Below, one piece after another: positions 133-64,000 of a stretch of DNA of 64,000 bases; position 1 is the stretch's first letter; every line of letters begins with the position of its first letter. Under the pieces are notes generated by a model. It had not been told where the DNA came from. It did not search any database and worked only from the letters and a program-made list of their open reading frames with translations. Source of the stretch: Faecalibacterium langellae (GTDB lineage: Bacteria > Bacillota > Clostridia > Oscillospirales > Ruminococcaceae); contig NZ_NMTR01000021.1 in NCBI RefSeq assembly GCF_002549775.1, forward strand, positions 558,001 to 622,000, given 5' to 3'. The translations under genes were made by a program, and so were the position numbers.

Positions 133-776
133 GTGAACACCTCCACATTCCGGCAGTCCAGCACGCCGTCCACCAGCTTTGCCCGGAAGAACTGAGGCTG
201 GATGTTTTCCGGGTCCGCGTAGTCCAGGTCATAGAGCATGAAGCCCAGGTCCTGCGTGACGGGCAGGGCAGGGATGGGCTCCCCGGCGGGCCATTCGCGG
301 AAGTTGGCCGGAAATTCCCGGCAGCCGAAACACGGCTGGTGATAGCACTGGCCTTTGTTCAGCCGCCGCCGCAGGATGTCCTGGAACTTGCCGGGATTAT
401 CGCCGGGTGCGGCCTTGTCCGTCATGGTAAAGTGGCACTCGATGACGTAGTGCACATCCTGCAGCACCAGCGCGGCCCGCTGCTGAATGTCTGCCGAGGT
501 GTACAGCACCGGCGCGGCACCGCCCTTGGCCGCACTGAGCGCCGCCGAGGAAAGCAGGGTGGATTTGACTTCGTTGCGGCGGATGTTGGTGAACCGCACC
601 GGGTTCAGCAGGTAGATGCGATCAATATGGTACTTCATGCCCGGGTGCCAATAGATCGCTTCCACCAACCCTCTTGCCGCGGACGGCGTGATGATGTCGT
701 AGCTCACGCGCTCTGTCTTCATCTCGGGACGGCTGAAGCAGGCGTAATCGCCCCACACTTCGATCAGCATTGACAT
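129..776 (-). CDS. cas5: Cas5c, type I-C pre-crRNA endoribonuclease and Cascade subunit
   Basis: A 215-residue protein of the Cas5d/Cas5c subtype. In type I-C systems, which lack Cas6, this protein cuts the repeat RNA and caps the crRNA 5' handle. The N-terminal strand (LIEVWGDYACFSRPEMK) and the following segment rich in RRNEVKS are typical of the family. The length fits the usual 210 to 240. The start has an AAAGGAGG-type ribosome site eight bases upstream. It overlaps cas8c by four bases, but a gap of 286 bases separates it from cas3. Confidence 0.92.
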   Translation of the reverse strand: MSMLIEVWGDYACFSRPEMKTERVSYDIITPSAARGLVEAIYWHPGMKYHIDRIYLLNPVRFTNIRRNEVKSTLLSSAALSAAKGGAAPVLYTSADIQQRAALVLQDVHYVIECHFTMTDKAAPGDNPGKFQDILRRRLNKGQCYHQPCFGCREFPANFREWPAGEPIPALPVTQDLGFMLYDLDYADPENIQPQFFRAKLVDGVLDCRNVEVFT

Positions 777-835
777 GGGTACCGCCTCCTTTCTGAATCC
801 GGTCGTGCAGTCTGGCAGGAACTTGTCTTAGCCAT
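764..835 (-). CDS. possible 23-codon leader ORF upstream of cas5c
   Basis: ATG at 835 preceded by AGAAAGGAGTG at good spacing. It encodes MAKTSSCQTARPDSERRRYP and stops 13 bases inside cas5c, in another frame. It would place a translating ribosome over the cas5c ribosome site and could couple the two. It resembles no known protein. The good ribosome site is the only positive evidence. Confidence 0.3.
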   Translation of the reverse strand: MAKTSSCQTARPDSERRRYPCQC

Positions 836-885
836 AACGTTCACTCCTTTCTGTTTCAAGCTTCATGAAAAAGGTCTTTGGCGTT

Positions 886-914
886 ATCTTGGCATACAGG
901 CAGACAGCTGTCAA
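886..914 (-). promoter_or_regulatory. candidate internal promoter for cas5c-cas8c
   Basis: A perfect TTGACA (914 to 909) is followed 17 bases later by CAAGAT, which matches TATAAT at three of six positions. It lies in the cas3-cas5 gap, so the Cascade genes could be transcribed apart from cas3. Confidence 0.4.
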
Positions 915-1062
915 TTTGTTTGGCGTATGTGACGCAAAATGGGGAGTGCAGCGCAGATGCCCGCAAAGGAAGAAGCTGCCCGGCCGCTTCTCTCTTTGTC
1001 TGTATTCTACCGGAACAAAAGTCCGATACACAGGACTTCTATCTGTTTTCAGCTGTTTTTTC

Positions 1063-33519: not shown

Positions 33520-34653
33520 CTAGCCCGTCTGTTTTCGGAGATAGGAGTCGAGCCGGTTGATCTTCTTTTTCTTAAATTTTTTATCAAGAGATGTATAGAT
33601 GCCGAGGGTGACGCTGATGTCTTTATGGCCCATCTGATCGCGGGCGGTGAGGACATCGACACCGGCAAAGTACATCAGGGTGCAGAAGGTGTGCCGCAGC
33701 TGATGCGGGGTAAAGGGCTCGATGCGCATGGGCAGGCCGCCCGGGCGTTTTTTGCTTTCCGCACCGTTGTAGCCGTACTTCACGTTCAGGTCGGCCATGT
33801 AGCTGCTCCACAGTGTTTTCCATGCCTGCTCGGTCATGCGGCGGCCCTTTACCGTGTGCAGCACATACAGACAGCCGTCCTGCTGGGTCTTGAGGTAGTC
33901 CACGAGGATGCGGGGAATGTTGACCACACGGCGGCCTGCCGCAGTCTTGGGCTTTTTGGTCTTTTGGTTGTGGAAGTTATAGCCGCTGTTGACAGTGATC
34001 GTGGCGGCGTCCAGGTCTACGTCGGCCCATGTGAGGGCGGTGGCTTCGCCGCGGCGCAGGCCGGAGTAAAGCAGCAGCATGGCAGCGCGCTGGGCGCGGT
34101 GGGGCGTTTCACGGATCCAGCGCTGCTGTTCTTCCGAGATGGGTTCACGGGGCTCGGGGTCGGCACCGGCAGGGCAGGTGGTCTTGACGATGGGGTTATA
34201 CTGGACGATCTCAGGGATGGCCAGCTCATACGCGGCCTTTGCGCTGCTGCGCAGGTTGGACAGGGTGAAGTGGGACAAGGGCGGCTTGCCGTCGTGCCAG
34301 TCGGCCAGAGCGTTCAGCACCTTCTGAAAATCGGCCGTCCGCAGGTCGGCGGCGGGATGCTCCAGCAGCGGACCCCAATGATTTTTGTTATCCTCGTAGC
34401 GGTCAAGGCTTTTCTGGCCGATGCCCTTGGCCTTTTTGGCTGCGATCAGGTTATCGTACAGGGTGGCAAGGGTGGCCTTGGCCTGCGCCGGGTCCATGCC
34501 TTTGCCCAGTGCTGCGCGGTAGGCTTCCGCTGCAGCGCGGGCTTCGCGGGCGGTGGTGCCATAAAAACTTTTGTATTTTGGCTTGCCGCTTTCATCCTTA
34601 CCGATACAGACGCGATAGCGGTAACGGCCATCGGAACCTTTTTTGTTTGTCAT
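33520..34653 (-). CDS. int: phage integrase, tyrosine recombinase
   Basis: 377 residues. An AP2-like arm-binding start (MTNKKGSDGRYRYRV) and a SAM-like core domain precede the catalytic domain. The latter shows arginine in YSGLRRGEATAL, HQLRHTFCTLM with the HxxR, GHKDISVTLGIYTSL with histidine and the nucleophilic tyrosine. The ATG at 34653 has GGGAGG upstream; a longer frame lacks one. It is beside a tRNA fragment, its expected target. Confidence 0.93.
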   Translation of the reverse strand: MTNKKGSDGRYRYRVCIGKDESGKPKYKSFYGTTAREARAAAEAYRAALGKGMDPAQAKATLATLYDNLIAAKKAKGIGQKSLDRYEDNKNHWGPLLEHPAADLRTADFQKVLNALADWHDGKPPLSHFTLSNLRSSAKAAYELAIPEIVQYNPIVKTTCPAGADPEPREPISEEQQRWIRETPHRAQRAAMLLLYSGLRRGEATALTWADVDLDAATITVNSGYNFHNQKTKKPKTAAGRRVVNIPRILVDYLKTQQDGCLYVLHTVKGRRMTEQAWKTLWSSYMADLNVKYGYNGAESKKRPGGLPMRIEPFTPHQLRHTFCTLMYFAGVDVLTARDQMGHKDISVTLGIYTSLDKKFKKKKINRLDSYLRKQTG

Positions 34654-34808
34654 GCAGCAAAACCTCCCGGCTTGCGCGCCCGGCCGGGAGGTGGTACAAT
34701 AGACCCGGCAGGCGCAAAAAGATTTACCTTCGTTTTGTGTAAGCTTCCATTCAGCCCGGCGTTGCTCGTACCAGCGCCGGGTACTTCTTTTTTCAAAAAA
34801 CTCACGGC

Positions 34809-34950
34809 TTGCAGAAATCACAGGGCCGCGCTACAATCAAAGAGCGGAAACGCGATGGGTTGTAAGGCATTCATGATTACTCCTACTTATTCGGGCAACA
34901 GGCAGCAGAAGGTCCCCCGGCTGGAAACAGCTGGGGGATTTTCTGTTTTT
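34809..34950 (+). ncRNA. candidate prophage small RNA of about 107 bases
   Basis: Promoter TTGCAG (34809-34814), 17-base spacer, TACAAT (34832-34837) predicts a start near 34844. A terminator stem CCCCCGGCTG-GAAA-CAGCTGGGGG (34914-34937) and a T-rich tail close it at about 34950. No convincing ORF lies between. It sits between int and hicA in an otherwise empty 425 bases. Confidence 0.45.
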
Positions 34951-38590: not shown

Positions 38591-38965
38591 TTATGCTTCT
38601 TTTGTGCCCAGGCCAAGCGCAGCACATTTTTTATAGCGCCCGGTGAGCACCAGATCTTCGACATAGTCCACGGCTTTCTGCTGGCCTTCCTCATTGAGCT
38701 GGTCGAAGGACGAGAGCAGCGCGGACTGCTGGGGAGTAAGGAGTACCGGTTCGGCGCTGTCAGGCGAAAAGCTATCCTGATACAAGAAATTCGGTTCGAC
38801 GTGTAGGACATCGAAAATTTTCAAAAGAACATCCCATTTAGGACTGCTGACGCCGTTTTCATAGTTGCCTATGGCACTTTTTGTAACGCCAAGTTTTTCA
38901 GCTAAATCCTGCTGAGTAAGACCGGACTGTTCACGCGCCTGTCGGAGACGACTGGCAAAAGACAT
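38591..38965 (-). CDS. CI-like phage repressor (XRE family)
   Basis: 124 residues. The N-terminal helix-turn-helix is LRQAREQSGLTQQDLAEKLG with TKSAIGNYENGVSSPK; a short C-terminal helical domain follows without a LexA-type protease site, so induction may involve an antirepressor. The ATG at 38965 has GAGGAGG seven bases upstream. It is divergent from the Cro-like gene across three operator-like palindromes. Confidence 0.88.
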   Translation of the reverse strand: MSFASRLRQAREQSGLTQQDLAEKLGVTKSAIGNYENGVSSPKWDVLLKIFDVLHVEPNFLYQDSFSPDSAEPVLLTPQQSALLSSFDQLNEEGQQKAVDYVEDLVLTGRYKKCAALGLGTKEA

Positions 38966-39000
38966 TGGAAACACCTCCTCAAAATCATCGTTCTAGGGTC

Positions 39001-45211: not shown

Positions 45212-46096
45212 ATGCGAAGAAGCTACATCCGGGAAAAGAAATACCAGTGCGGTGACGAGTACATGACCGTGGGCGTCTATGCAGTGACCGACCAGGAGCA
45301 CCGGCAGCGGGGCAAGAAGCGCAAGGAGAGCGACCGGGGCCAGAAGGAGCGGAACAAGTACGCCAGCCTGCGCCGAAAGCAGCGGAAGGTGCTGGCGAAT
45401 TTTGACAAGAACGGCTTTTTCCTGACCGGTACATACGAGGACGGCTATTTACCTGCAGACTTTGCGGCCTGCCGGAAGGACGTGGAGAACTACAAGCGGC
45501 GGGTGATCACGGCGACCTGCAAGCGATTTGGCGTGCCGAAGGACAGCATCCGGCTGATGCTGTGGGCGGTGCGCAAGGGCGAAGCCGGACGGCTGCACCT
45601 GCACGGGTTTGCCCAGTGCAAAGGACTGGATGCGGCCGACCGGCGGGAGTGGCGCGAGATGCTGGAAGACCTATGGCGGCGGCGTATCCCGGGCACCGGC
45701 GAATACGACCCGCTGGGCACCATGAATGTGGACCGCATGGACATGAAAAAGCTGCTGGGCATTGACGGGCAGGGCAAAAACGGCACGGTGGGGTACATCT
45801 ACGGCCACAAAGAGCGCAGCTGCATCGAGACGCGGAACCTGCGGCAGCCGGACGAGCTGGCCGCCTGCGACACCAAGTGGAGCCGGAAGCAGCTGCGCAA
45901 GGGCTGCACCGAGTGCGCGGAGAACGCCTACTGGTGGGAGCAACGGTTCCCGGGGTGGGAAGTGGTACAGGTGGCGGTGTATGACCCGCAGCAGCTGTAC
46001 GAGACGGACAGGCCGCGGCCGGAGGGCTGGGAAAGCAGTGAACCGCAGGCGTATCTGATCCTGCGGCGGAGAGAGTTTGCGAAAGTTCGCACCTGA
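45212..46096 (+). CDS. HUH-family replication initiator
   Basis: 294 residues. Motif 1 is FFLTGTYEDGY (residues 69-79), motif 2 the histidine pair RLHLHGF (H129 and H131), motif 3 a tyrosine-lysine block GYIYGHK (Y195 and Y197, K200). This is the signature of rolling-circle nickases. A Cys-rich stretch (KGCTECAENAYWW) may bind zinc. No helicase, primase or polymerase is seen nearby, so this probably starts phage DNA replication using host enzymes. Confidence 0.75.
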   Translation: MRRSYIREKKYQCGDEYMTVGVYAVTDQEHRQRGKKRKESDRGQKERNKYASLRRKQRKVLANFDKNGFFLTGTYEDGYLPADFAACRKDVENYKRRVITATCKRFGVPKDSIRLMLWAVRKGEAGRLHLHGFAQCKGLDAADRREWREMLEDLWRRRIPGTGEYDPLGTMNVDRMDMKKLLGIDGQGKNGTVGYIYGHKERSCIETRNLRQPDELAACDTKWSRKQLRKGCTECAENAYWWEQRFPGWEVVQVAVYDPQQLYETDRPRPEGWESSEPQAYLILRRREFAKVRT

Positions 46097-46654: not shown

Positions 46655-47365
46655 ATGGCGACGCGCAGATACTGCAAGAACACGGTGCCCGGCCGACAGG
46701 GCCGGGGCAAGAAGTACCCGGCAAAGGTACGGGCGGACGTGGTGATGGCCATGATCGGCTCGAACTCCATCTGCGCGGTGGCCCGGAAGTACGGCGTGCC
46801 GGAAAGCACCATCCGCAGCTGGATGGCGGAGGAAGCCAAGCAGCCGGACGGGGCCTTTGCCCAGGCGCGGGCCGAAGCGGCGCGGGAGATCGCAGCGCGG
46901 GCAGCGCTGGGGGCCCGGGCCCAGGTGGGTTATCTGCAGCAGCGGGTGGCCGAGAACCAGCGGGCGGCGGATATCCGGGCAAAGCTGGAGCAGCGGCTGG
47001 ACGAGGACGCCCGATCGCGGCGGTACGAGATCGGCGGGCTGCTGAAAAGCGAGGCGGAAGACCTGCAGGACGCAGCGGAGACCGGCCTTGTGGTGCGCAG
47101 CGCACCGGGGACCTACGACCGGCAGCTGAGCGACGAGGAACGGGACGAGCTGGCAAAGCAGCTGGAACGGTACGAAGCGAAAGCCATGACCGACAAGGAC
47201 GCGGCGAACATTGCGGCGGTGCTTTTGACGACGGCCGCCAACGCTGCGGCGCTGGTGCCCCGGGACGAAGGCAGCAGCCAGAGCGCGGCCCCGGCGGTGC
47301 TGATGGAAGGCCAGGACAGGAGCGAGCAGCAGGAGGTGGTACTGGATGGCCGGGGAGACGTATGA
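46655..47365 (+). CDS. terminase small subunit-like protein
   Basis: 236 residues. An N-terminal helix-turn-helix (MIGSNSICAVARKYGVPEST, with IRSWMAEEAKQ) is followed by a long helical middle and a Gln/Glu-rich tail. This fits DNA-recognising small terminases. AAGGAGGG precedes the ATG. It overlaps the large subunit by 20 bases. Confidence 0.75.
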   Translation: MATRRYCKNTVPGRQGRGKKYPAKVRADVVMAMIGSNSICAVARKYGVPESTIRSWMAEEAKQPDGAFAQARAEAAREIAARAALGARAQVGYLQQRVAENQRAADIRAKLEQRLDEDARSRRYEIGGLLKSEAEDLQDAAETGLVVRSAPGTYDRQLSDEERDELAKQLERYEAKAMTDKDAANIAAVLLTTAANAAALVPRDEGSSQSAAPAVLMEGQDRSEQQEVVLDGRGDV

Positions 47366-48806
47366 CGGCAGGCCCATCCTCTGGCGGCCGCAGCCGAAGC
47401 AGGCCGCCTTCATGCGGCGCAGCGAGGACGAGGCCCTGTACGGCGGGGCCGCAGGCGGCGGCAAGAGCGACGCGCTGGTGATCGAGGCGCTGCGGCAGGT
47501 GGACATCCCACACTATCGCGGGCTGATCGTGCGCAAGACCTACCCGCAGCTGAGCGAGCTGATCGACAAGACCATGCAGTACTACAAGCCGGTCTTCCCG
47601 AAGGCGAAGTACAACGCGTCGAGCCATGTGTGGACCTTCCCCAGCGGGGCGAAAATCTACTTCGGCAGCATGTTCCGCACCCAGGACAAGTACAACTACC
47701 AGGGCAAGGCCTTTGATTTTATCGGGGTGGACGAGCTGACCCACTTTACCTGGGAGGAGTACAGCTACCTCATGAGCCGCAACCGCCCCACAGGCCCGGG
47801 CACGGTGGTGTACATGCGGGCCACGGCCAACCCCGGCGGCATCGGCCACGGATGGGTGAAGGCCCGGTTCATCACACCGGCACCACCGGGCACCCGCATG
47901 GTGCAGCTGGTGGACGTGAAGAAGCCGGACGGCACCGTGCAGCAGATGCGGCGCACGCGGGTGTTCATCCCGTCCACGGTGTTTGACAACAAAAAGCTGC
48001 TGGAGAATGACCCGGGATACCTGGGCACGCTGGCCAGCTTGCCGGAAGCGGAAAAGCAGGCGCTGCTCTACGGCGACTGGGACAGCTTTTCCGGCCAGGT
48101 GTTCACCGAATGGCGCAACGACCCGGACCACTACGAGGACCAGCGGTGGACCCACGTCATCAAGCCGTTCCGCATCCCGGCACACTGGCGCATCTGGCGC
48201 GGGTACGACTTCGGCTATGCAAAGCCTTTTTCCGTGGGCTGGTACGCGGCCGACGAGGAAGGGCGGCTTTACCGCATCAAGGAGCTGTACGGCTGCACCG
48301 GTACGCCGAACGAAGGCCTGCGCATCGACCCGGTGGAGCAGGCAAGGCGCATCCGGGAGGCAGAGCAGAACGACCCCATGCTGCGGGGGCGGCAGATCAC
48401 CGGCGTGGCAGACCCGGCCATCTTCAACGAGAGCCAGGGCGAGAGCATTGCCGAGATGCAGGAAAAGCACCCGAACTACATCTTCTGGAAGCCCGGCGAC
48501 CACACGCGGCTTGCGGGCAAGATGCAGTTCCACTACCGGCTGGCCTTCGACCGCGAGGGGCGGCCGATGTTCCAGGTGTTCGACACATGCAAGCATTTTA
48601 TCCGCACCATCCCGAACCTGGTCTATGACGAGAGCAACGTGGAGGACATTGACACCACACAGGAAGACCACATTTACGACGAGTGCCGGTATGTGCTGAT
48701 GGAAAACCCGCTGAGCCCGAAGCAGGCGGTGCGGGATGTGCCGATGAAGGACGACCCGCTGGACCTGGACAAGAGAAAGAGCCGGACGCGGGTGATGAGG
48801 GTGTAG
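47346..48806 (+). CDS. terL: terminase large subunit
   Basis: 486 residues. Walker A is GGAAGGGKSDALV near residue 35, Walker B FIGVDELTHF, with a TANPGG coupling motif. The C-terminal RNase-H-like nuclease has aspartates in GYDFGYAKPF and GVADPAIF. It translocates DNA into the procapsid and cuts it. Confidence 0.95.
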   Translation: MAGETYDGRPILWRPQPKQAAFMRRSEDEALYGGAAGGGKSDALVIEALRQVDIPHYRGLIVRKTYPQLSELIDKTMQYYKPVFPKAKYNASSHVWTFPSGAKIYFGSMFRTQDKYNYQGKAFDFIGVDELTHFTWEEYSYLMSRNRPTGPGTVVYMRATANPGGIGHGWVKARFITPAPPGTRMVQLVDVKKPDGTVQQMRRTRVFIPSTVFDNKKLLENDPGYLGTLASLPEAEKQALLYGDWDSFSGQVFTEWRNDPDHYEDQRWTHVIKPFRIPAHWRIWRGYDFGYAKPFSVGWYAADEEGRLYRIKELYGCTGTPNEGLRIDPVEQARRIREAEQNDPMLRGRQITGVADPAIFNESQGESIAEMQEKHPNYIFWKPGDHTRLAGKMQFHYRLAFDREGRPMFQVFDTCKHFIRTIPNLVYDESNVEDIDTTQEDHIYDECRYVLMENPLSPKQAVRDVPMKDDPLDLDKRKSRTRVMRV

Positions 48807-49005
48807 ACGCTCCGCTGGGCCAGAGGACAAGAGGGGCGTTTCGACGCGCCCCTCTCATCCTCTGGACTCCACTTACCCCTGACGAGAAAGGGGTTGCTCG
48901 CCCCTTTCAGACCCCAAAGAAGAAGTCGAAACGGAAAAAATCTAGCCGCTTCGCTAAACGATTTTTTCACGTTTCTCCGATTTGAAAAACGAGAAGGTGA
49001 AGCGC
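48807..49005. repeat. palindrome-rich spacer before portal
   Basis: It holds a long hairpin (CCAGAGGA...AGAGGGGCG with its complement, about 48820-48862) and a second one, AAGGGGTTGCTCGCCCCTT (48895-48913). These look like the host-type palindromic elements. The end of it carries the portal ribosome site. Confidence 0.55.
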
Positions 49006-51012
49006 ATGAATGAAAACGAGCTTTTGCAGGGGATGCTGAAGCGCTACCCGGACCAGAGGGACGGGGCCTTTGGAGAAATGCAGAATGCCGCAGCTGCCCC
49101 TCATCAGTCGGCTTTGCCGACAGCTTCCCCCGAGGGGGAAGCCTTCGAACTGCCCACGGCGCAGGTGATCGGGGAGGAAGAAGTCAAGAAGGCAAACGAT
49201 ATCCTGCAGAAGTACAAGACCGGCAAGGCGGCGCTCGACAAGCGGATCATCGACAACGAGCTGTGGTTCCGCATGGGGCACTGGAAGAACTACGAAAACA
49301 AGATGATGGAAGGCAAGCCGAAGCCCTCCAGCGGGTGGCTGTTCAACAGCATCGCCAACAAGCACGCCGACGCCATGGACAACTACCCGGAACCCAACGT
49401 GCTGCCCCGGGCGGCGGACGACGAGGAGACCGCGAAGGTACTCTCCAAAATCCTGCCCACGGTGCTGGAACAGTGCGACTACGAGACGGTGTACAGCGAC
49501 ACCTGGTGGCGCAAGTTGAAGACCGGCACCGGCGTGAAGGGCATCTTCTGGGACCCGACGGCCCGCAAGGGCCTGGGCGAGATCAGCATCCGCAGCGTGA
49601 ACCTGCTGATGCTGTACTGGGAGCCGGGCGTGGAGGACATTCAGGACTCGCCGAACCTGTTCAGCCTGAGCCTGGCAAACTCGGAACAGCTGGAGGCGCA
49701 GTACCCGCAGCTGAAGGGCCACACCGGCCACAGCCTGGACGTGGCAAAGTACATCCACGATGACAGCATCGACACCGCCGACAAGAGCGTGGTGGTGGAC
49801 TGGTACTACAAAAAGGCCCAGCCCGGCGGGCAGACGGTGCTGCACTACTGCAAGTATTGCAACGGCATCGTGCTGTATGCCAGCGAGAACGACCCGCAGT
49901 ACGCGGAGAGCGGCTTTTACGACCACGGAAAGTATCCCTTTGTGTTCGACCCGTTATTCCGCGAGGAGGACAGCCCGGCGGGCTTTGGGTACATCGACGT
50001 GATGAAGGACACCCAGACCGCCATTGACGAGATGAACCACGCCATGGACGAGAATGTGAAGCTGAGCGCAAAGCAGCGGTACATCCTGAGCGACACGGCG
50101 GGGATCAACGAGGAAGAACTGGCCGACTTTGGCCGGGACATCGTGCATGCGGCGGGCCGGGTGACCGACGAGAGCATGCGGCCGCTGCAGACGGCGGGGC
50201 TTGCGGGCAACCTGATCACCTACCGGGACGACCGGGTGAACGAGCTGAAGGAGATCAGCGGCAACCGCGATGTTTCCCAGGGCGGCACCACCAGCGGCCT
50301 GACGGCGGCCAGCGCCATTGCAGCGCTGCAGGAAGCAGGCAGCAAACTTTCCCGCGACATGCTGAAAAGCGCCTACCGGGCTTTTGCGCAGGAGTGCTAC
50401 TTCATCATCGAGCTGATGCGGCAGTTCTACGACGAGCAGCGGGTATACCGCATCACGGGAGAGAGCGGCGGCACGGAGTATGTGCCCTTCAGCAATGCGC
50501 AGTTACAGCCCCAGCCCGGCGGCATGGTGGGCGGTGTGCAGCTGGGCGACCGGGAACCGATCTTTGACATCACGGTGAGTGCGGCGAAGAAAAGCACCTT
50601 CAGCCGCCTTTCCCAGAATGAGACGGCGAAGGAATGCTACCAGATGGGATTCTTTGCACCAGCCAATGCTGACGCGGCGCTGGCTGCGCTGGACATGATG
50701 GACTTTGAGGGCATCGAGAAGGTGCGCCAGCGGGTGGGCCAGAACGGCACACTGTACCAGCAGCTGCAGCAGATGGCCCAGCAGCTGCAGAAGATGGCGG
50801 CGATCATCGACGCACAGAACGGCACCAACGTGAGCGCGGCGGCGGGGGCAGCCAGCCAGGCGGCAGCGGGCAGCGGGGGCGGAAGCGGCGGAAAGACCGC
50901 AGCAGCCAGCACCCTGAACAGCCTTGGCGGCGTGGTGGGCGACAGTTCCACCAGCCTTTCGAGCCAGGCGGCGAAGCGGGCGATGAACGTGAACAACCCG
51001 AATAAGGAGTAA
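49006..51012 (+). CDS. phage portal protein
   Basis: 668 residues. It forms the dodecameric DNA gate. The wing and stem regions show LAGNLITYRDDRVNELKEIS and GGTTSGLTAASAIAALQEAG, with a Gly/Ala/Ser-rich tail. The ATG at 49006 has AAGGTGA upstream. Near residues 31-47 it carries an in-frame palindromic repeat (49097-49145) that adds PHQSALPTASPEGEA, probably an inserted element tolerated in a flexible N-terminus. Confidence 0.85.
   Translation: MNENELLQGMLKRYPDQRDGAFGEMQNAAAAPHQSALPTASPEGEAFELPTAQVIGEEEVKKANDILQKYKTGKAALDKRIIDNELWFRMGHWKNYENKMMEGKPKPSSGWLFNSIANKHADAMDNYPEPNVLPRAADDEETAKVLSKILPTVLEQCDYETVYSDTWWRKLKTGTGVKGIFWDPTARKGLGEISIRSVNLLMLYWEPGVEDIQDSPNLFSLSLANSEQLEAQYPQLKGHTGHSLDVAKYIHDDSIDTADKSVVVDWYYKKAQPGGQTVLHYCKYCNGIVLYASENDPQYAESGFYDHGKYPFVFDPLFREEDSPAGFGYIDVMKDTQTAIDEMNHAMDENVKLSAKQRYILSDTAGINEEELADFGRDIVHAAGRVTDESMRPLQTAGLAGNLITYRDDRVNELKEISGNRDVSQGGTTSGLTAASAIAALQEAGSKLSRDMLKSAYRAFAQECYFIIELMRQFYDEQRVYRITGESGGTEYVPFSNAQLQPQPGGMVGGVQLGDREPIFDITVSAAKKSTFSRLSQNETAKECYQMGFFAPANADAALAALDMMDFEGIEKVRQRVGQNGTLYQQLQQMAQQLQKMAAIIDAQNGTNVSAAAGAASQAAAGSGGGSGGKTAAASTLNSLGGVVGDSSTSLSSQAAKRAMNVNNPNKE
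49097..49145 (+). repeat. palindromic repeat family B, copy in portal
   Basis: Starts CCCCTCATCAG, holds hairpins TCGGC-TTT-GCCGA and CTTCCCCC-GAGGGGGAAG, and ends GCCTT. The 49-base unit recurs at 60435 with the small stem changed on both sides (compensatory). Confidence 0.75.
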
Positions 51013-51022
51013 GGAGAACGGC

Positions 51023-52375
51023 ATGATCAGAATTACCTATAGAGAAGCCAAGGAGAACGTGCTGAAGCTGCGGGCAGAAGGGCACGCGGGATATGCACCG
51101 AAAGGGCAGGACATTGTGTGCGCGGCGGTAAGCACGCTGATGCAGGCGCTGGCGTTCAGCGTGAACGACAGAGAAGACGGCTTTGCGGTGGCATCCAGCA
51201 GCGGAGCTGCAGGAACGTATCTGGAACTGCAGGCGAGAGCGACCCCGGAAAACCGGGTAAAGTTTGAGCTGGTGACGGACGGGCTGGAACTTGTGGCGCA
51301 GCTGTACCCGAAGTTTGTGACCTTTAACGACGGGACGGGCACGGAGGATATGGTGGATCTGCAGTTGTTTGCCGACGGCGGAGACGGCGGGACGGCTGGC
51401 GATGGTGCGGAGAGCGCACCGGCGGTGCAGGCACCGGAACTGCGCCCCGCACAGGAGCGGCTTGCAAAGAGAAGCCACCCGGGAAAGAGCGCGAAAGCGG
51501 GCGCACCGGCCCCGGCTGCCGATAGCGGCGCGGATACCGGCAGCGAAGCTGCAAAAGAGGATGCACCCGGCGAAGAAAAGCCGGAGACGCAGCAGGAGAA
51601 ACAGGAACCGGAGCACAAACCGGCAGACCCGGCGGAAAAGCGCCGGGCCTTTGGCCAGCTGATGCAGGGCGAGTACGCGGCGGAGTTTGAGGAAGCCATG
51701 CAGCGCGCGGCACAGGTGGCGGCGCAGAACATCCAGAACAACCCCCAGGTGAAGGCGCTGATGGACGCGCTGGGCGAGGCCTACGGTGTGGACGCCAGCA
51801 GCCCGGACAGCCTGACCGCGCTGACCGACGCGGTGAAGAACGGCAAGGTGAAGAACGACGCCTATTACGAGACCCTTGCCGCCGAAAAGGGCATCAGCGT
51901 GAAGACGGCCCGGGAGATGGACCGGATGGAAGGGGAGCTGCAGCGGGCCAACGCCGAGAAGCAGCGGGCCGAACAGATGCGCGCGGCCGCCGAGCACCAG
52001 CAGCGTGTGGCGGCGGTGCAGGCGCAGTGGCAGGCGGAAGCGGAAAGGCTGCAGCAGAAGTACCCGAGCTTTGCGCTGGACGAAGTGCTGAACAACCCGG
52101 CCGTGGCGGACATGATCCGGCGGGGCATCGGGTTGGAAGCGGCGTACCGCGCAGCCTACTTTGACCAGCTGATGGAGAACCAGACCGCCAAGACCGCAAA
52201 GCAGGTGGAACAGGGTGTGGCAGCCCGCATCCAGCAGCGCGGCCAGAGACCCACCGAGAACGGCGTGCGCCCCGGCGGCGCGGCAGAGACCAAGGTGGAC
52301 GTGGAGCACATGACCCGCGCACAGCGGGCCGAGCTGGCACGCCGGGCACGGCGCGGGGAACGGATCGTGCTGTGA
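51023..52375 (+). CDS. Prp-like cysteine protease fused to a scaffold protein
   Basis: 450 residues. Residues 1-105 match Prp (YsxB): the catalytic dyad is H21 in AEGHAGYAPKG and C33 in DIVCAAVST. A motif VDLQLFADG (residues 111-119) follows, resembling the LNLQFFA-type N-terminus that Prp cuts from ribosomal protein L27. An acidic, Ala-rich scaffold with coiled coils (residues about 200-400) comes next. The capsid protein just downstream carries the same DLQLFAD near its start. The protease probably trims both during assembly. Confidence 0.75.
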   Translation: MIRITYREAKENVLKLRAEGHAGYAPKGQDIVCAAVSTLMQALAFSVNDREDGFAVASSSGAAGTYLELQARATPENRVKFELVTDGLELVAQLYPKFVTFNDGTGTEDMVDLQLFADGGDGGTAGDGAESAPAVQAPELRPAQERLAKRSHPGKSAKAGAPAPAADSGADTGSEAAKEDAPGEEKPETQQEKQEPEHKPADPAEKRRAFGQLMQGEYAAEFEEAMQRAAQVAAQNIQNNPQVKALMDALGEAYGVDASSPDSLTALTDAVKNGKVKNDAYYETLAAEKGISVKTAREMDRMEGELQRANAEKQRAEQMRAAAEHQQRVAAVQAQWQAEAERLQQKYPSFALDEVLNNPAVADMIRRGIGLEAAYRAAYFDQLMENQTAKTAKQVEQGVAARIQQRGQRPTENGVRPGGAAETKVDVEHMTRAQRAELARRARRGERIVL

Positions 52376-52437
52376 GAATGAATTTCCCGCGCGAAGGGTG
52401 CGAGAAAGATAAAAACCTTTTGAAGGAGGACCAACAA

Positions 52438-53457
52438 ATGAGCAACAAGAGACTGGACCTGCAGCTGTTTGCTGACGCAAGCGCACAGCTGCAGAACACC
52501 ACCGCCACCAGCGGCATGTCCGCTGAAATGAAGACCTACTACGAGAAGACCCTGCTGGACCTGGCAGAGCCTGCACTGGTGCATGACCAGTTCGGCGACA
52601 GCTACCCCATCCCGGCCAACAACGGCAAGACCATCGAGTTCCGCAAGTACACGGCGCTGCCGAAGGCCACCGAGCCCCTGACCGAAGGTGTGACCCCGGC
52701 GGGCCAGACCCTGACCGTGACCACGGTGACCGCAGACGTGCACCAGTACGGCGGCTGGGTGTCCCTGACCGACATGCTGGACCTGACCGCCATCGACAAC
52801 AACGTGGTGCAGGCCACGAACCTGCTGGCAAGCCAGGGCGGCCGCACCATGGACACCATCGTGCGCGACATTCTGAACGGCGGCACCAACGTGATCTATG
52901 CGCCCAAGGTGGCCGACGGCGTGGAGACGGCCGTGACCAGCCGCGCAGGCCTGGACAAGACTGCGCAGCTGACCGTGGACGTGATCAACCAGGCCGTGGC
53001 CCTGCTGCAGGCCCAGAACGCGGACCCCATCGGTGACAGCTATGTGGCCATCGTGCACCCGTACACCAGCTACGACATCCGCAAGGACCCGGCATGGGTG
53101 GACGCCCACAAGTACGCGGCCCCGGAGGAAATTTTCAACGGCGAGATCGGCAAGATCAACAACGTGAGGTTCGTGGTGTCGAGCGAGGCGAAGATCTGGA
53201 CCGGCACCGGCTGCCCGACGGGCCTGGCGGTTTTCAGCACCCTGGTGCTGGGTGCCCACGCCTACGCTACCACCGAGCTGGAAGGCGGCGGCATGCAGCA
53301 CATCGTGAAGCAGCTGGGCTACGGCGACGACCCGCTGAACCAGCGCGCTTCCGTGGGCTGGAAGGCCACCAAGACCGCCGAACGCCTGAGCGAGCCGTAC
53401 ATGGTGCGCATTGAGAGCTGCAGCGAGAGGTACAGCGCAAAGGCACTGGCGAACTGA
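52438..53457 (+). CDS. major capsid protein, N4-gp56 family
   Basis: 339 residues. It opens with LDLQLFADASA, the predicted Prp cut site, then SAEMKTYYEKTLLDLAEP and the N4-gp56 landmarks KTIEFRKYTALP and VTADVHQYGGWVSLTDM. The late motif GWKATKTAERLSEPYMVRI is usual in the family. HK97-fold shell protein. GAAGGAGGA precedes the ATG. Confidence 0.88.
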   Translation: MSNKRLDLQLFADASAQLQNTTATSGMSAEMKTYYEKTLLDLAEPALVHDQFGDSYPIPANNGKTIEFRKYTALPKATEPLTEGVTPAGQTLTVTTVTADVHQYGGWVSLTDMLDLTAIDNNVVQATNLLASQGGRTMDTIVRDILNGGTNVIYAPKVADGVETAVTSRAGLDKTAQLTVDVINQAVALLQAQNADPIGDSYVAIVHPYTSYDIRKDPAWVDAHKYAAPEEIFNGEIGKINNVRFVVSSEAKIWTGTGCPTGLAVFSTLVLGAHAYATTELEGGGMQHIVKQLGYGDDPLNQRASVGWKATKTAERLSEPYMVRIESCSERYSAKALAN

Positions 53458-58489: not shown

Positions 58490-61400
58490 ATGGAAACGTG
58501 GACACCGGAGCGACTGAAAAAGGCAAGAGAAAACTGGGAAGCGGGAAATCAGAAACCCGCAGCACAGACGACCAAAGCGCCAGAAACCAAAGCGTCCCCG
58601 AAGGAAACAAGCGGAGAGTGGACGCCTGAACGAATCAAAAAAGCGCGGGAAAGCTGGGAGACAGGAACTCCCGCCCGGGCAACGGCAGCCAGCGGCATGA
58701 CCACCGCCGGAAGCCTGGGCGGGCAGGTGCTGGCGCAGATGATGGGCAGCACGGGCAGTGCACGCAGCACGAACCCGAAGCTGCAGCTGGAGGTGGCGAA
58801 GAACGGCACCGGGAACCTGCAGGCCTACCCGGGAAAGAATGGCATTGTGCAGCCTGCCGAAATCCGGGGCGGCACGGAACAGCCGGAATGGCTGGGAAAG
58901 GCTGGCAGCAGCACCCCGGCGGCGCAGGTGCGCGGCACGGTGAAGCCGACCGAAGAACAGCGTATCGCGGCCATTGCCAGGGGAGAAGAAGGCCTCTGGG
59001 GCGCTATGGCGCAGGCGCAGAAAGATGTGTTTACGGAAGAAACACAGAAACTGAACCAGAGCCGGTTCCGGCAGCTGAACCAGTGGATGGACGAAAGCCC
59101 GCGCCACCGGGAACTGGTGGACCTGATGCGGATGACCAGCAATCAGCTGGAGACGGCGACCGGCATCAAGGAATCGGATTGGACGACACAGGATGCTGGA
59201 GACAAAACGCCGAAATATAGCAATGGCGATTTGCTGCGGATGGGCTACACAGCAAAAGAAATCCAGGAAGCACGGAAATACATCGAAGACTATGACGGTG
59301 TTTCCATGCTGGAGAAAGTTGGAACACGGGCATTTGACTTTGTGGGCAGCTGGGTGGACTCGCCGATGGGATGGCTTATCGGCGAAGGTGAAAGCCTGGC
59401 CCAGAAAGCCAATGACGGAGAAAGCAGCCTGAAAAATCTGGACGCACTGCGAGAGGAGGTTGCGGGAGACGAGCGCCAGAGAACATTGCTGGAGCTGATC
59501 GTGACAGGCGATGAGCTGAACCCGACAGGGCTGATCAAAGCAGGAGATGACCGTCTTTCGGGGAGCTTCCGGGACAAAGATGCTGACTTGCTGAAGATGG
59601 GATACAGCCAGGACGAAATCGACAAAATGCGCGGCCGATATCAGCTGACCAAAGTAAGCACAAAAATGGACCCGGAAAAGAGCATCGGATATCAGTGGTC
59701 GAAGCAGGGGCAAAGATACGCACAGTCTTCGTTGAGCGGCCTTTCACCGCTGGCACAGAAGGCGCTGGGCATCGTGGGCAGTGCAGCGCAGAATCTGACT
59801 GTGGCGGAACTGATGGGTCCGGAAGCAGTGCTGATGATGCTGAGCGGCTCCGGCGCTTCAGATGCACTGATACAAAGCATGGAACGGCATGACAGCGCAG
59901 ATAAAACAGCGAAAAACGGTGCGCTGAAGTTCGGCGCGGGGTATCTGATCAACAGCGTGGGCGTGGCAGACCTGACCAAAACGCTGGGGCTGGACGGCGC
60001 CAAGGACACGCTGGCGAGCAAACTGGCAGACCTGGTGCGCAGCGTGGCCGACAACGGCCCGCTGGCGCAGCAGTACCCGGCAATCGCGAACGCCGTCTCG
60101 GGCGGCGTGGACAACGCCATGCAGGCCTTTGTGGAGACCTATGCAGACCAACTGATCGATGCTTGGCTGGGCGACAGTGAAGCAGCGCAGAACCTGTTCA
60201 AGAAAGACACCTTCCTGAACGCGGTGGAAAGCGGCCTGACCGGCGGCGCTTCCGGTGCGCTGGGCGGCGCTGTGGGCACCGGGCTGGGCAAGATGAACGC
60301 CCGGTTTGATGCGGCAGCGGGCGGACCCCTCTCACCGCTGCAGTCCGGCGATGCCGGAGCTGCAACGGAGCTCTCCCGAGGGGAGAGCCTTTCTCAAAGG
60401 AATGCAGAGCAGGAAGAAAGCGCGCACGCGGCTTCCCCTCATCAGTCGCCTTCGGCGACAGCTTCCCCCGAGGGGGAAGCCTTGAGCCCGGCGGACATGC
60501 AGGCACAGCAGGCTGCAGAGATGGTGCAGGCTGCACAGGAAGCGATGGGCGCGCAGAGCACGGCACAGACGGTGCGCAGCGAAAACCAGGCGGTGCAGCA
60601 GCTGGCCGCTGCCATGGCGGACGGGGAACTGACCGGAAAAACCATCAACCTGTTTACCCCGAATGCGGCGAACGAAGCAAACCGAGCGGCGTTTGCGGAA
60701 GAATACGGCATGGAACTGCCGGAGACAGCGGCAAAGACGCGTCAGACACTGCGGGAACTGGCAGCACAGCAGCAGAGCACCCAGGCAGCGGCTGCATCTG
60801 CGGAAACCGCAGCGGAAACACCGGCGCAGCAGGCGGAAAGCGGGCAGGGCTACAGCGTGAGCCTGAGCAACGACACCATGACAGTGCGCTTTGCAGACGG
60901 GACCGAAACGGTGCAGAAAGTAGACCTGGAAGACCCGAAGACACTGCTGTTTGACCCGGAACAGCTGCACCGGCAGGCGCAGGCAGAAAGCCATGCTGCG
61001 CAGCAGAACGCTGTGGAGAACACCGGGGAAACGGTGGAAAGCAGCCCGGCAGAACAGCACAGCGGGCTGCGGGAGACCTACGGTCTGACGCAGCAGAGCC
61101 GGAGCACACAGCAGCGGCAGGTGCAGCAGGAGTTGACCCGCTGGAAGGTGTCGGATGCGGCGAGCGAGACCATCAGCAAAAACATGCCGGTGGGCATTGG
61201 AGATGCCGAGCGGTATGCGGCCGCAGCCAGCAGTCTGTACCGTCTGGGCCAGATGGAAGATGTGACCACCTTTGACAAGGCGATGGAGCTGGCGCAGGGC
61301 ATGAACGGGCTTGCGGTGAACACCGAGTATGTGCTGGCACAGGACGGCGGCAGGCAGGCTTTACAGCTGGCGTGGCTGCAGGGGCACGGCGAGATGGAAG

Positions 61401-64000
61401 CCGGGAGCATGCAGCGGGGGACCCTGGGCGGAGAACTGACCGAAAAGAGCACCAGCGGCAGCGGACGGGTGCTTTATAAGGGGACCATGCGCACGGCAAA
61501 CGATGTGGGCACCCAGTTGATCGAGCTGAACGCCCGGGCTACGGACACCGACGCAGTGCTGAAGACGGTGCTGCAGGGCAATGACCGGGTGAAAGCCTAT
61601 GTAGACACCGAGGTGGCACAAATCTATTTTGCGGACAGCGCCGAGGACGTGTTCGGCACCATCCTGCACGAGGACTACCACTGGTACAACTCGCTGGACG
61701 CCGAAGGCGCACAGGCACTGCAGCAGCACGCGCTGGAATTTCTGGCCAAGAGCGAGGGCTATGAGAACATCGACGCGATGATCCGGGAGAAAGCTGCGGA
61801 CTATGCACAGCAGGGCCTGACCTATGAACAGGCGGCGGAAGAACTGGTGGCGGACGCCTGGCGCGGCATCTTCAGCGATGAAGCAAGCTTCAAGCGCTGG
61901 GTGGAGTTCCAGCGGCAGCAGGCTGAGAAGAATGCGGGCCGGGCAGGCACCATCCGCAAAGTGATGAACAAGGTGAAGGAACTGCTGAGCGACATCGTGA
62001 GCCGCGCAAAGGAAGTGCTGGCCAAGGACCCGGAGAACAAAGCGGCCCTGCGGGCACAGCGCCTGGCCGAAGCGGAAAAGCGGGTGCTGCAGGACGAATA
62101 CTTTGCCCACGCGGAAAAGGCTCTGGACAGCCTGCGGAGTGCAAAAGAAAACGCCGCAGCCCTTGAGAACAAGGGTGCGGCGGAAGGAACACGATTCAAG
62201 CTGCATGAGGACAGCGAGTCTCTGACAGAACAGATGAACGATCATCTGGGTGAACTGGAAGAAATGGAGCCGGTAGCGGAAATCCGTGGAAATGAGGTGA
62301 ATTTCGGGAAAAACGCGAGGGAGAATGTTGAGAACATTGATGCTTTTTTCGATTCGATCGGAAATAAAGTGGAAAGAGAAAACTTTGGAATCGTTGAATT
62401 AAAGCATTATGGCGCGAATAAAACAGTGCGTCATGGAAATAGTGCAGCAAAGCAGGCTGCGGTCGCAGCTATTCCGGGAGTGATTCGTAACGGCAATCAG
62501 ATTGGATATGAAAAAAACTGGCAAGGCAAGGGCTATGACACATATGTTTTTGCTGGGCCGGTAATTATGGATGAAACCAGAATCAACGAAGCGGTAATTG
62601 TGAACTCTTACACAAGAGAAGACGGCAGAAAAGCTTTTTATACACACGAAGTGTGTTGGTCGGATGGTAGTTATGTGACATTTGACGATGCCGGAAAACC
62701 GACAAAAAAAGAAGATACTCCCACACATCTCCCGATGGATGTGCGGAGCAGCGCTATGGCTGCTCAGGAAGTATCTTCTGACACAAGTATAGCACAGGAA
62801 ACCGCCGAAAACAAGGGAAATAACGGGACGCTGAAGAAAAATGTGCGGTATCAGCTGAGCGAGACAGACGAGCTGACGAAGCTGCGCGACGAACAGCAGC
62901 AGCTGGACAAGCAGCGGCGGGCCCTGAAGGAAGAACGCAGTGCCTGGCTGGAAAGCGATGCAGTGAAGGCAATCGAAGCGAAGAAGAAAGCACTGGGCAT
63001 CTTTTCTGCGGAAGCAAAAGCCTACCGGGACAGCGAAGAATACCAGAATTACCTTGCAAAGCGCAAAGACTACAATGCCCGCATGGCGCAGCTGGATGAC
63101 CAGAGCGCCGCGCTGGACGACCGGATGAAAGCGGTCAATGCCCGGATGCAGCAACAAAGAGCGGCAGAGGGCAAGGCAGAACAGGCGGCGTATGATGCAA
63201 AGGCCGAAGCCTACGGCAGCAAGGCAGAATACCGCCGCGCACTGGCAAAGGAACAGTTTGGTACGACCGAGGATTTCAACCGGGCGGGGTACATCCTGCC
63301 GGACGGTCAGATGCTGAACTTTGCCCAGAATGACCGCACCCGAGACACCGACCACCGGGAGATCATGAGTGTGTTCGGCCCGGCGGAGGTAAAGACTGGA
63401 ACGGAAGCCTTAAATGAATTTTTGCTGGACGGCAACGTGCGCGTGATGGCCGAGGGACCTGGCATCGACCTTTCGGCAGACACGGCACCCACCGCGCAGC
63501 AGCTGGAACAGATCCGGCAGATGGCGCAGGAGCTGGGCAGCGCACGCAGGCAGTTCACGCTGGACATCTCTACGGCGGACGGCCGGGTGGCGGCCAGCAA
63601 GGAGTACAGCGGCCGGGTGGACGCTGACCGCGTGGTGCGGGAAATCCGGGACTATTACCGGACCGGAGAGCTGGCACAGGAAAGCGGCCTTGCGAAGTTC
63701 CGCTATCAGCTGGCAGAGCAGGCCAGCCGGGACGCGAAGAAGAACGACCAGCAGACGGCGAGCCGGGCCATTGCGGACAAGGCGGCAGCGCTGGACACGC
63801 TGAGCCAGTTCTTTGGGCTGACACGGGGCGTGAAGGTGAGCCAGAGCGCCATTGAAGGGCTGGCCAGCCGCTGGGCAAAGGCCAACGGCAGCAGGGTGGA
63901 CCGGGCAAAGCTTGCACGGGAGACCGAAGTGTTGGTGGAGTACCTGAAGGCGGACGGCGCGGACATGGAGAAGGGCCAGGCGCTGGCAGAAACGCTGGCA
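58490..64000 (+). CDS. giant phage polyvalent protein, truncated by the window
   Basis: 1,837 codons without a stop to the right edge. The start (residues 1-60) repeats WTPERxKKARExWExG twice. Residues about 540-600 hold a Gly/Ala-rich hydrophobic part. Two palindromic repeats are inserted in frame near residues 613-634 and 649-665. A zinc metallopeptidase follows with HEDYH at residues 1060-1064 and a downstream EELVADAW. A nuclease-like domain (about 1280-1400) contains IPGVIRNGNQIGY and AFYTHEVCWSDG, resembling the phage barnase/EndoU/colicin-type (PBECR) group. Then come coiled coils. Such proteins are injected with the DNA. Confidence 0.75.
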   Translation, partial: METWTPERLKKARENWEAGNQKPAAQTTKAPETKASPKETSGEWTPERIKKARESWETGTPARATAASGMTTAGSLGGQVLAQMMGSTGSARSTNPKLQLEVAKNGTGNLQAYPGKNGIVQPAEIRGGTEQPEWLGKAGSSTPAAQVRGTVKPTEEQRIAAIARGEEGLWGAMAQAQKDVFTEETQKLNQSRFRQLNQWMDESPRHRELVDLMRMTSNQLETATGIKESDWTTQDAGDKTPKYSNGDLLRMGYTAKEIQEARKYIEDYDGVSMLEKVGTRAFDFVGSWVDSPMGWLIGEGESLAQKANDGESSLKNLDALREEVAGDERQRTLLELIVTGDELNPTGLIKAGDDRLSGSFRDKDADLLKMGYSQDEIDKMRGRYQLTKVSTKMDPEKSIGYQWSKQGQRYAQSSLSGLSPLAQKALGIVGSAAQNLTVAELMGPEAVLMMLSGSGASDALIQSMERHDSADKTAKNGALKFGAGYLINSVGVADLTKTLGLDGAKDTLASKLADLVRSVADNGPLAQQYPAIANAVSGGVDNAMQAFVETYADQLIDAWLGDSEAAQNLFKKDTFLNAVESGLTGGASGALGGAVGTGLGKMNARFDAAAGGPLSPLQSGDAGAATELSRGESLSQRNAEQEESAHAASPHQSPSATASPEGEALSPADMQAQQAAEMVQAAQEAMGAQSTAQTVRSENQAVQQLAAAMADGELTGKTINLFTPNAANEANRAAFAEEYGMELPETAAKTRQTLRELAAQQQSTQAAAASAETAAETPAQQAESGQGYSVSLSNDTMTVRFADGTETVQKVDLEDPKTLLFDPEQLHRQAQAESHAAQQNAVENTGETVESSPAEQHSGLRETYGLTQQSRSTQQRQVQQELTRWKVSDAASETISKNMPVGIGDAERYAAAASSLYRLGQMEDVTTFDKAMELAQGMNGLAVNTEYVLAQDGGRQALQLAWLQGHGEMEAGSMQRGTLGGELTEKSTSGSGRVLYKGTMRTANDVGTQLIELNARATDTDAVLKTVLQGNDRVKAYVDTEVAQIYFADSAEDVFGTILHEDYHWYNSLDAEGAQALQQHALEFLAKSEGYENIDAMIREKAADYAQQGLTYEQAAEELVADAWRGIFSDEASFKRWVEFQRQQAEKNAGRAGTIRKVMNKVKELLSDIVSRAKEVLAKDPENKAALRAQRLAEAEKRVLQDEYFAHAEKALDSLRSAKENAAALENKGAAEGTRFKLHEDSESLTEQMNDHLGELEEMEPVAEIRGNEVNFGKNARENVENIDAFFDSIGNKVERENFGIVELKHYGANKTVRHGNSAAKQAAVAAIPGVIRNGNQIGYEKNWQGKGYDTYVFAGPVIMDETRINEAVIVNSYTREDGRKAFYTHEVCWSDGSYVTFDDAGKPTKKEDTPTHLPMDVRSSAMAAQEVSSDTSIAQETAENKGNNGTLKKNVRYQLSETDELTKLRDEQQQLDKQRRALKEERSAWLESDAVKAIEAKKKALGIFSAEAKAYRDSEEYQNYLAKRKDYNARMAQLDDQSAALDDRMKAVNARMQQQRAAEGKAEQAAYDAKAEAYGSKAEYRRALAKEQFGTTEDFNRAGYILPDGQMLNFAQNDRTRDTDHREIMSVFGPAEVKTGTEALNEFLLDGNVRVMAEGPGIDLSADTAPTAQQLEQIRQMAQELGSARRQFTLDISTADGRVAASKEYSGRVDADRVVREIRDYYRTGELAQESGLAKFRYQLAEQASRDAKKNDQQTASRAIADKAAALDTLSQFFGLTRGVKVSQSAIEGLASRWAKANGSRVDRAKLARETEVLVEYLKADGADMEKGQALAETLA
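60326..60391 (+). repeat. palindromic repeat family B variant, in-frame in polyvalent gene
   Basis: CCCCTCTCACCGCT, hairpin GTCCGGC-GAT-GCCGGAG, then GGAGCTCTCCCGAGGGGAGAGCCTT. It matches the ends of the intergenic copy at 54340. Confidence 0.65.
60435..60483 (+). repeat. palindromic repeat family B, copy in polyvalent gene
   Basis: Same 49-base unit as at 49097 and in the same reading frame relative to its host gene (codes PHQSPSATASPEGEA). The first small stem reads TCGCC-TTC-GGCGA instead of TCGGC-TTT-GCCGA, keeping its pairing. Confidence 0.75.

Follow-up and report, generated by a model that had tools for sequence, protein, structure and literature searches.

Why should a phage gene join a Prp-type cysteine protease to a putative scaffold, and why does the motif between the two recur at the start of the capsid protein? 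A Faecalibacterium prophage raises this question in the window, the 64,000-nucleotide stretch of DNA that was analysed here. As judged from sequence comparison and structure prediction, this is very likely a head assembly and maturation gene of the phage, encoding a polyprotein in which Prp frees itself from the scaffold and trims the capsid protein.

Architecture of the Prp-scaffold gene and its prophage

The element is an integrated phage in which integrase, repressor and replication protein are followed by terminase, portal, Prp-scaffold and major capsid protein (MCP). It is also present in IMG/VR as a contig of 38,985 bp (L004). Its features, in window coordinates, are:

33520–34821, reverse strand: integrase, left end of the prophage (PHROG 1, E 5e-59); the IMG/VR contig starts here by coordinate arithmetic
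38591–38974, reverse strand: repressor-like regulator (PHROG 8, E 2.8e-19)
45212–46096, forward strand: replication initiation protein (PHROG 3584, E 4.5e-30)
46655–47365, forward strand: HTH protein with weak HTH matches directly before the terminase, possibly the small terminase subunit
47346–48806, forward strand: terminase large subunit (PHROG 979, E 4.5e-64)
48982–51012, forward strand: portal protein (PF16510, P22-like portal, 4.2e-32)
51023–52375, forward strand: Prp-scaffold fusion, a single ORF of 450 residues between portal and MCP
51023–51370, forward strand: Prp cysteine protease domain, residues 1–116, expected N-terminal product (PF04327, model and PDB matches)
51356–51376, forward strand: cut motif DLQLF/AD of the linker, residues 112–118, expected self-release site
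51371–52375, forward strand: scaffold-like part, mostly helical, residues 117–450, expected C-terminal product (PHROG 13908)
52438–53457, forward strand: MCP, 339 residues (PHROG 1357 major head protein, E 8.6e-90 on the longer ORF)
52456–52476, forward strand: cut motif DLQLF/AD of the MCP, residues 7–13; the expected trim removes residues 1–11

A giant ORF (58490–64000, forward strand, at least 1837 residues) exceeds the end of the window and contains one LPD3 (large polyvalent protein) domain.

Residues 1–99 of the fusion match Pfam Peptidase_Prp (PF04327) with 59.2 bits (cut-off 27, E 4.7e-16), and residues 1–101 match PHROG 4478 'peptidase'. The expected catalytic pair is His21 and Cys33, the counterparts of His22 and Cys34 in S. 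aureus Prp. Both residues are invariant in 25 aligned fusions, and so are Leu113 and Phe116 of the motif within an otherwise variable linker. The first-pass annotation had described a Prp domain with this pair that runs into DLQLFAD and a scaffold, and its description is borne out by the family profile, the fold and the motif at residues 112–118. The conservation of Cys33, on which it relied, also holds: the catalytic His and Cys are kept in all 38 distinct fused Prps.

In the AlphaFold2 model of the fusion (24 aligned fusions as input, mean pLDDT 76.7, pTM 0.38), the Prp domain spans residues 1–103. In blocks of ten over residues 1–100 the pLDDT varies between 62 and 95, and the lowest block (residues 21–30) is the loop bearing His21. 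The linker (residues 106–136), which holds DLQLFAD, is disordered with pLDDT values below 50. Long helices are found in residues 203–408 of the scaffold-like part. The N-terminal part of the model has 14 PDB matches at E ≤ 0.001 (best 4.4e-7). These include 2g0i/2g0j, 2idl, 1s12, 4peo and S. aureus Prp (7kld and 7jvs), peptide-bound S. aureus Prp being among the matches; 2g0i, 2idl and 4peo are presumably Prps too. For 1s12 this assignment is given in PMC9405229. Profile, catalytic His/Cys and fold thus all place the domain in the Prp protease family (PF04327, MEROPS C108). The linker is not docked in the active site of the model, which therefore lends no structural support to cutting in cis.

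Residues 112–449 match PHROG 13908, a PHROG of unknown function. Most likely the C-terminal part is the scaffold, as suggested by its position between portal and MCP, its helices and this unnamed PHROG. Protease and motif are seen in one reading frame, and with the putative scaffold they would constitute a self-processing protease-scaffold polyprotein. The motif is of the LxLQxFA type, a candidate site for Prp, which cuts between F and A.

The gene directly after the fusion encodes the MCP. Its start reads MSNKRLDLQLFAD, also given as MSNKRLDLQLFADASAQ; a 361-residue ORF from 52372 is a longer mechanical start of the same protein. The MCP does begin with the same DLQLFAD, as had been noticed at first pass, at residues 7–13. 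The position of the cut, by contrast, had been given as LFA/D and is corrected here to an expected LF/AD, because Prp is reported to cut between F and A in phage 80alpha (PMC5744158).

A chance origin of the linker and MCP motifs was rejected by pattern counts over the whole genome of 2.82 Mb. The degenerate pattern (L/F)Q-x-F-A-(D/E) gave seven matches in the genome and two in the reversed sequence, which served as control. Two of the seven are the linker and MCP sites, 1.1 kb apart. When frames are read from ATG starts only, and not from GTG or TTG, three of the other five lie at least 47 residues after the first ATG and two lie before any ATG.

That cutting occurs, where and in which order, we infer from these sequences. 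The scaffold part would recruit the capsid protein and thereby carry the protease into the head during assembly. The Prp domain would cut its own linker after LF (116/117), releasing a protease of 116 residues and a scaffold of 334 residues, and would cut the MCP after Phe11, leaving a capsid protein 11 residues shorter. The phage would supply the enzyme itself, in a host with neither a ribosomal Prp nor a cleavable L27. Among relatives the commoner arrangement is a separate Prp gene immediately ahead of a scaffold gene whose product opens with the motif. The window gene may have arisen by fusion of such a pair, the old scaffold start becoming the release site.

Ribosomal Prp and L27 in the host

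The first-pass annotation had supposed that the host's own Prp might also act on these sites, and had proposed a comparison with the L27 start of this genome. The idea of a host enzyme is refuted. The genome has only two PF04327 matches. One is the window fusion and the other belongs to a second head cluster (L002/L069), so that both lie in phage-type head clusters. Host L27 starts with MAHKKG and has no N-terminal extension; the gap between rplU and rpmA is just 14 bp, with no prp in between. With a fused Prp that sits in a prophage and an L27 of this kind, the enzyme does not correspond to a ribosomal (L27-processing) Prp. Since the host has no ribosomal Prp, it cannot process the phage with one.

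The same relation is found more widely. In 32 L27 loci of the family (the 30 best-scoring plus two of Faecalibacterium), an extended L27 has prp alongside in 17 of 17 cases, and an L27 starting with MAHKKG has no prp in 15 of 15. A Prp match is present in 30 of 31 Faecalibacterium genomes, and all 32 places are within loci holding the MCP family. The 31 genomes gave 27 L27 matches, three of them unreadable; all 24 readable starts are MAHKKG, with no Prp close by.

Cutting by a host Prp, with the fused domain dispensable, is the arrangement reported for 80alpha (PMC5744158). It is also likely, from the sequences, in one relative of the window phage, L269 in genome G250. Here no Prp is found within 7 kb upstream, the only Prp of the genome adjoins L27, and the motif of capsid protein and scaffold (LNIQLFA) is identical to that of host L27 (INIQLFA) in six of seven positions. 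In contrast, no ribosomal prp is present in the window genome or near the Faecalibacterium L27 loci that were read. Barring a Prp outside PF04327, the host enzyme is refuted for the window host, and we consider this explanation extremely improbable for the window phage.

The idea that phages carry Prp because their hosts lack one is not general. Among 30 hand-chosen hosts of related phages, 28 have L27, and 22 of these 28 have prp beside it (adjacency judged from coordinates); the hosts of the fused cases L233, L245 and L246 are among them. Two further L27 starts were observed. At L340 (G239) the L27 reading frame starts with FFAHKKG and no prp adjoins, perhaps as a relict of a lost extension. 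Record L083 (MT839050.1, 3951–4624), filed as 'Bacteriophage sp.', contains a Prp gene with the start of a long L27 behind it, MLKMNLQLFAHKKG, and is probably bacterial DNA.

Paired cut motifs in related phages

An alignment of 12 MCPs was used to find relatives and yielded 80 of at least 590 confirmed loci on viral contigs and 80 of 434 on genome contigs. Of 210 loci scanned, 205 carry the MCP family (some genomes are counted twice): 109 have a separate Prp, 62 a fused one and 34 none that was found. In all 109 separate cases the standalone Prp ORF lies upstream of the scaffold. For the 144 loci with more than 2.5 kb upstream, the numbers are 95 separate, 40 fused and nine without a Prp found. 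Among 95 distinct standalone phage Prps the catalytic Cys is kept in 95 and the His in 94, with one gap.

In most phages scored, the MCP opens with a motif like that of the scaffold start (or of the linker), and the two drift in step. Examples of scaffold/MCP pairs are LNLRLFD/LNLRLFD (L163), SFIQHFA/FDIQHFG (L162) and LHTQMFD/LHTHMFD (L085). In 71 non-redundant phages the mean agreement is 4.76 of 7 positions versus 3.63 after shuffling, and none of 10,000 shuffles was as high; the motif picker prefers consensus-like words, so that the raw agreement is not free of bias, but the shuffles carry the same bias. Shuffling inside single-linkage clusters of 70% MCP identity gave 3.98, and none of 5,000 shuffles reached the observed value. 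Furthermore, the MCP motif is closer to that of its own scaffold than to the mean of the scaffolds of the five nearest phages in 55 of the 71, farther in 10 and tied in six. These 71 remain from 97 non-redundant pairs, 26 having been dropped for want of a scorable motif in one of the two proteins (wrong starts surely in some cases, perhaps real loss in others); all 12 fused pairs were scored.

Where host L27 could be included (16 phage-host pairs), mean agreement is 4.56 between MCP and scaffold, 3.50 between MCP and L27 and 3.13 between scaffold and L27. The MCP-scaffold agreement is the highest in 12 of the 16.

Two further sets of phages were compared additionally. In the more distant Page, API480, StenR_269, Y3 and Kumquat, hand-chosen from 120 records, the MCP is homologous, no Prp is present in the whole record, and the motif is absent from both proteins (5/5). 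Conversely, six Prp-bearing records were taken from 14. Five are annotated isolates with MCPs outside the family model, namely TP712 and PLgT-1 (closely similar), Krappator27 and phiS11 (related) and BL3, and all five have the motif on scaffold and MCP. In the sixth, the unannotated L338, the motif is found near the start of one 311-residue frame.

In near relatives the rule 'no Prp, no motif' is not clean. The nine loci in which no Prp was found although more than 2.5 kb upstream is available have the motif on both proteins in four cases, on one in three and on none in two (one of them mis-called). The four are L160 and L263, which are the same phage by sequence, L202 and L269. Their enzyme may be encoded elsewhere or be the host's.

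The first-pass proposal that the fused Prp releases itself and trims the capsid is thus supported indirectly by the co-variation of the motifs, the kept His and Cys and the five distant, motif-free relatives without Prp. Compatible with self-release is a gene with two products, in which the fusion delivers the protease and the scaffold is also made alone from an internal start. The lambda C/Nu3 and herpesvirus UL26/UL26.5 genes are precedents for such a pair. The site in question is:

51343–51355, forward strand: possible relict or internal scaffold start, with GGAGG and then an in-frame ATG (51350) and GTG (51353) before the motif; suggestive only

GGAGG lies five bases ahead of the GTG, and in 32 of 40 distinct fusions a Met is found at the first letter of the motif or up to three residues before it. 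This Met is missing in the other eight, and it may be a mere relict of the old start. The mean anti-Shine-Dalgarno energy at the site is −7.3 versus −4.6 at other in-frame ATGs. However, synonymous shuffles give −6.8, so that the signal comes mostly from the amino acids and is not clearly above the shuffles. A second product from this start is therefore regarded as possible but doubtful.

Prp and the motif could also act mainly as an assembly chaperone or timer that holds the N-termini of scaffold, capsid protein and linker, cleavage being incidental. In 80alpha the N-terminus of the scaffold is reported to be needed for assembly whereas its cutting is not, and an uncleavable capsid protein is viable (PMC5744158). 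Prp has also been proposed as a chaperone of L27, with the cleaved peptide as a competitive inhibitor (PMC9405229). Against this stands the retention of His and Cys, which binding alone would not require, in all distinct fused phage Prps and in almost all standalone ones. We hold a mainly chaperone-like role to be unlikely and prefer a protease that releases itself and trims the capsid protein. Nevertheless, the viability of 80alpha with uncleavable capsid protein or scaffold implies that the cutting may matter little and that its purpose may be subtle.

Probable repeated fusion, the Faecalibacterium cassette and known systems

MCP trees were built with 110 and with 112 rows by a quick search, rooted at the midpoint and supported by SH-aLRT values only. 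They show four changes between fused and separate state, and starred branches force each of them. The first tree lacked three full-length loci of Faecalibacterium in which Prp is separate; adding these did not alter the count. The MCP tree itself does not tell gain from loss of the fusion; if separate genes are taken as ancestral, the preferred reading is that of three fusions and a single split. The three fusion groups are the Faecalibacterium-phage clade, L188/L201 and L233/L245/L246. The split concerns a clade of four Faecalibacterium loci (98, starred) next to the fused cassettes described below.

In a Prp tree (unrooted, 97 columns) the phage Prps separate from 30 ribosomal Prps, the best-scoring of the family sampled, with 98% SH-aLRT. 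The first-pass term 'ribosome-type protease' is to be qualified accordingly, the phage enzymes forming a lineage apart from the ribosomal Prps sampled. This tree does not show which way transfer between the phage and the ribosomal Prps went.

The second fusion of the window genome (L069, G000:C11:30000-49000) belongs to a cassette of ~10 kb that extends from terminase to virion proteins. The host genes around it are syntenic in G224, G222 and G221, and partly so in G212, G198 and G210. By Prp match, a counterpart exists in 30 of the 31 Faecalibacterium genomes searched. Prp and scaffold are fused in 23 of 29 loci of the genus and in separate ORFs in six, including L112, which is split by a frameshift. 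The fused cassettes form a single clade (96, starred) of the MCP tree, nested within the group of Faecalibacterium phages; the window type is not part of this clade. Across 22 sequences the median dN/dS is 0.31 for the cassette Prp (221 of 231 pairs, 10 being saturated) and 0.45 for the scaffold, which indicates that both are kept.

L112 (G222, 725–1821, reverse strand), with Prp and scaffold parts in different frames, and L080 (4513–5680, forward strand) have a linker insert with a second LQLFA motif. The unannotated faecal 'phage' records L078–L081 (MT836159, MT838973, MT836324, MT838161) contain fusion genes that resemble the chromosomal cassette type; they may represent the cassette or packaged host DNA and not phage.

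The cassette fits operon I of FpGTA, a gut gene transfer agent (Borodovich et al. 2026, PMC12946183), described as 10.5 kb with ten ORFs and as present in all twelve Faecalibacterium genomes examined there, including strains APC923/51-1 and 61-1. The identification was made on layout and strain and not on accession numbers; the loci of these two strains (L222 and L251) carry the Prp-scaffold fusion. Operon I shares the gene order terminase, portal, scaffold, MCP with the window element, and by our reading (L069, L066) its scaffold gene, too, encodes a fusion of this type. FpGTA lacks integrase and replication genes and sits as a head operon at a fixed chromosomal place, the layout that L069 has. 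The window element differs in being a prophage that carries an integrase, a repressor and a replication gene. The words 'Prp', 'protease', 'peptidase' and 'cleavage' do not occur in the main text of PMC12946183, and PMC10846135 mentions Prp in general terms. Among the open-access matches listed, no title or beginning of an abstract concerns a Prp-scaffold fusion or an FpGTA protease; a description in a subscription journal may exist.

Taken together, it appears probable that in Faecalibacterium Prp and the long L27 are gone from the ribosome and Prp is found only inside capsids. The self-releasing Prp-scaffold, which apparently evolved three times, would then be the unrecognised maturation protease of FpGTA and its phage kin, and Prp and its two cut sites would co-evolve within each phage as a private set distinct from that of the host. 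A likely maturation protease could thus be named for FpGTA, a cultured and purifiable particle, and tested on existing proteomics. Prp would serve phages in head maturation, its paired cut sites evolving together, and its repeated fusion to the scaffold would be a delivery route. These findings also bear on whether phages were the source of ribosomal Prp or its recipients.

Among known systems, Lactococcus phages TP712 and PLgT-1, Oenococcus phages Krappator27 and phiS11 and Brochothrix phage BL3 resemble the window phage in having a phage Prp and the motif on scaffold and MCP. They differ in that their Prp is a separate 'peptidase' gene between portal and scaffold and their MCPs are unrecognised by the family model. 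A self-processing protease and scaffold in one reading frame is found in phage P2 gpO, lambda C/Nu3 and herpesvirus UL26, which are serine proteases of other folds, whereas Prp is a cysteine protease. Phage Cp-1 is a pneumococcal phage. In PMC9405229 it is called staphylococcal, and its capsid protease is given as the other member of MEROPS clan CR. Like the fused Prp would do, this clan CR cysteine protease is reported to trim the N-terminus of the capsid protein; the extension there is ~40 residues, unlike the 11 expected in the window MCP. The same enzyme family acts on Staphylococcus phage 80alpha, whose capsid protein and scaffold are reported to be cut by host Prp between F and A (PMC5744158, PMC9405229). 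Scaffold and capsid protein bear an N-terminal motif of the same kind as in the window phage. 80alpha, however, encodes no protease, whereas the window phage encodes a Prp fused to its putative scaffold, in a host lacking one.
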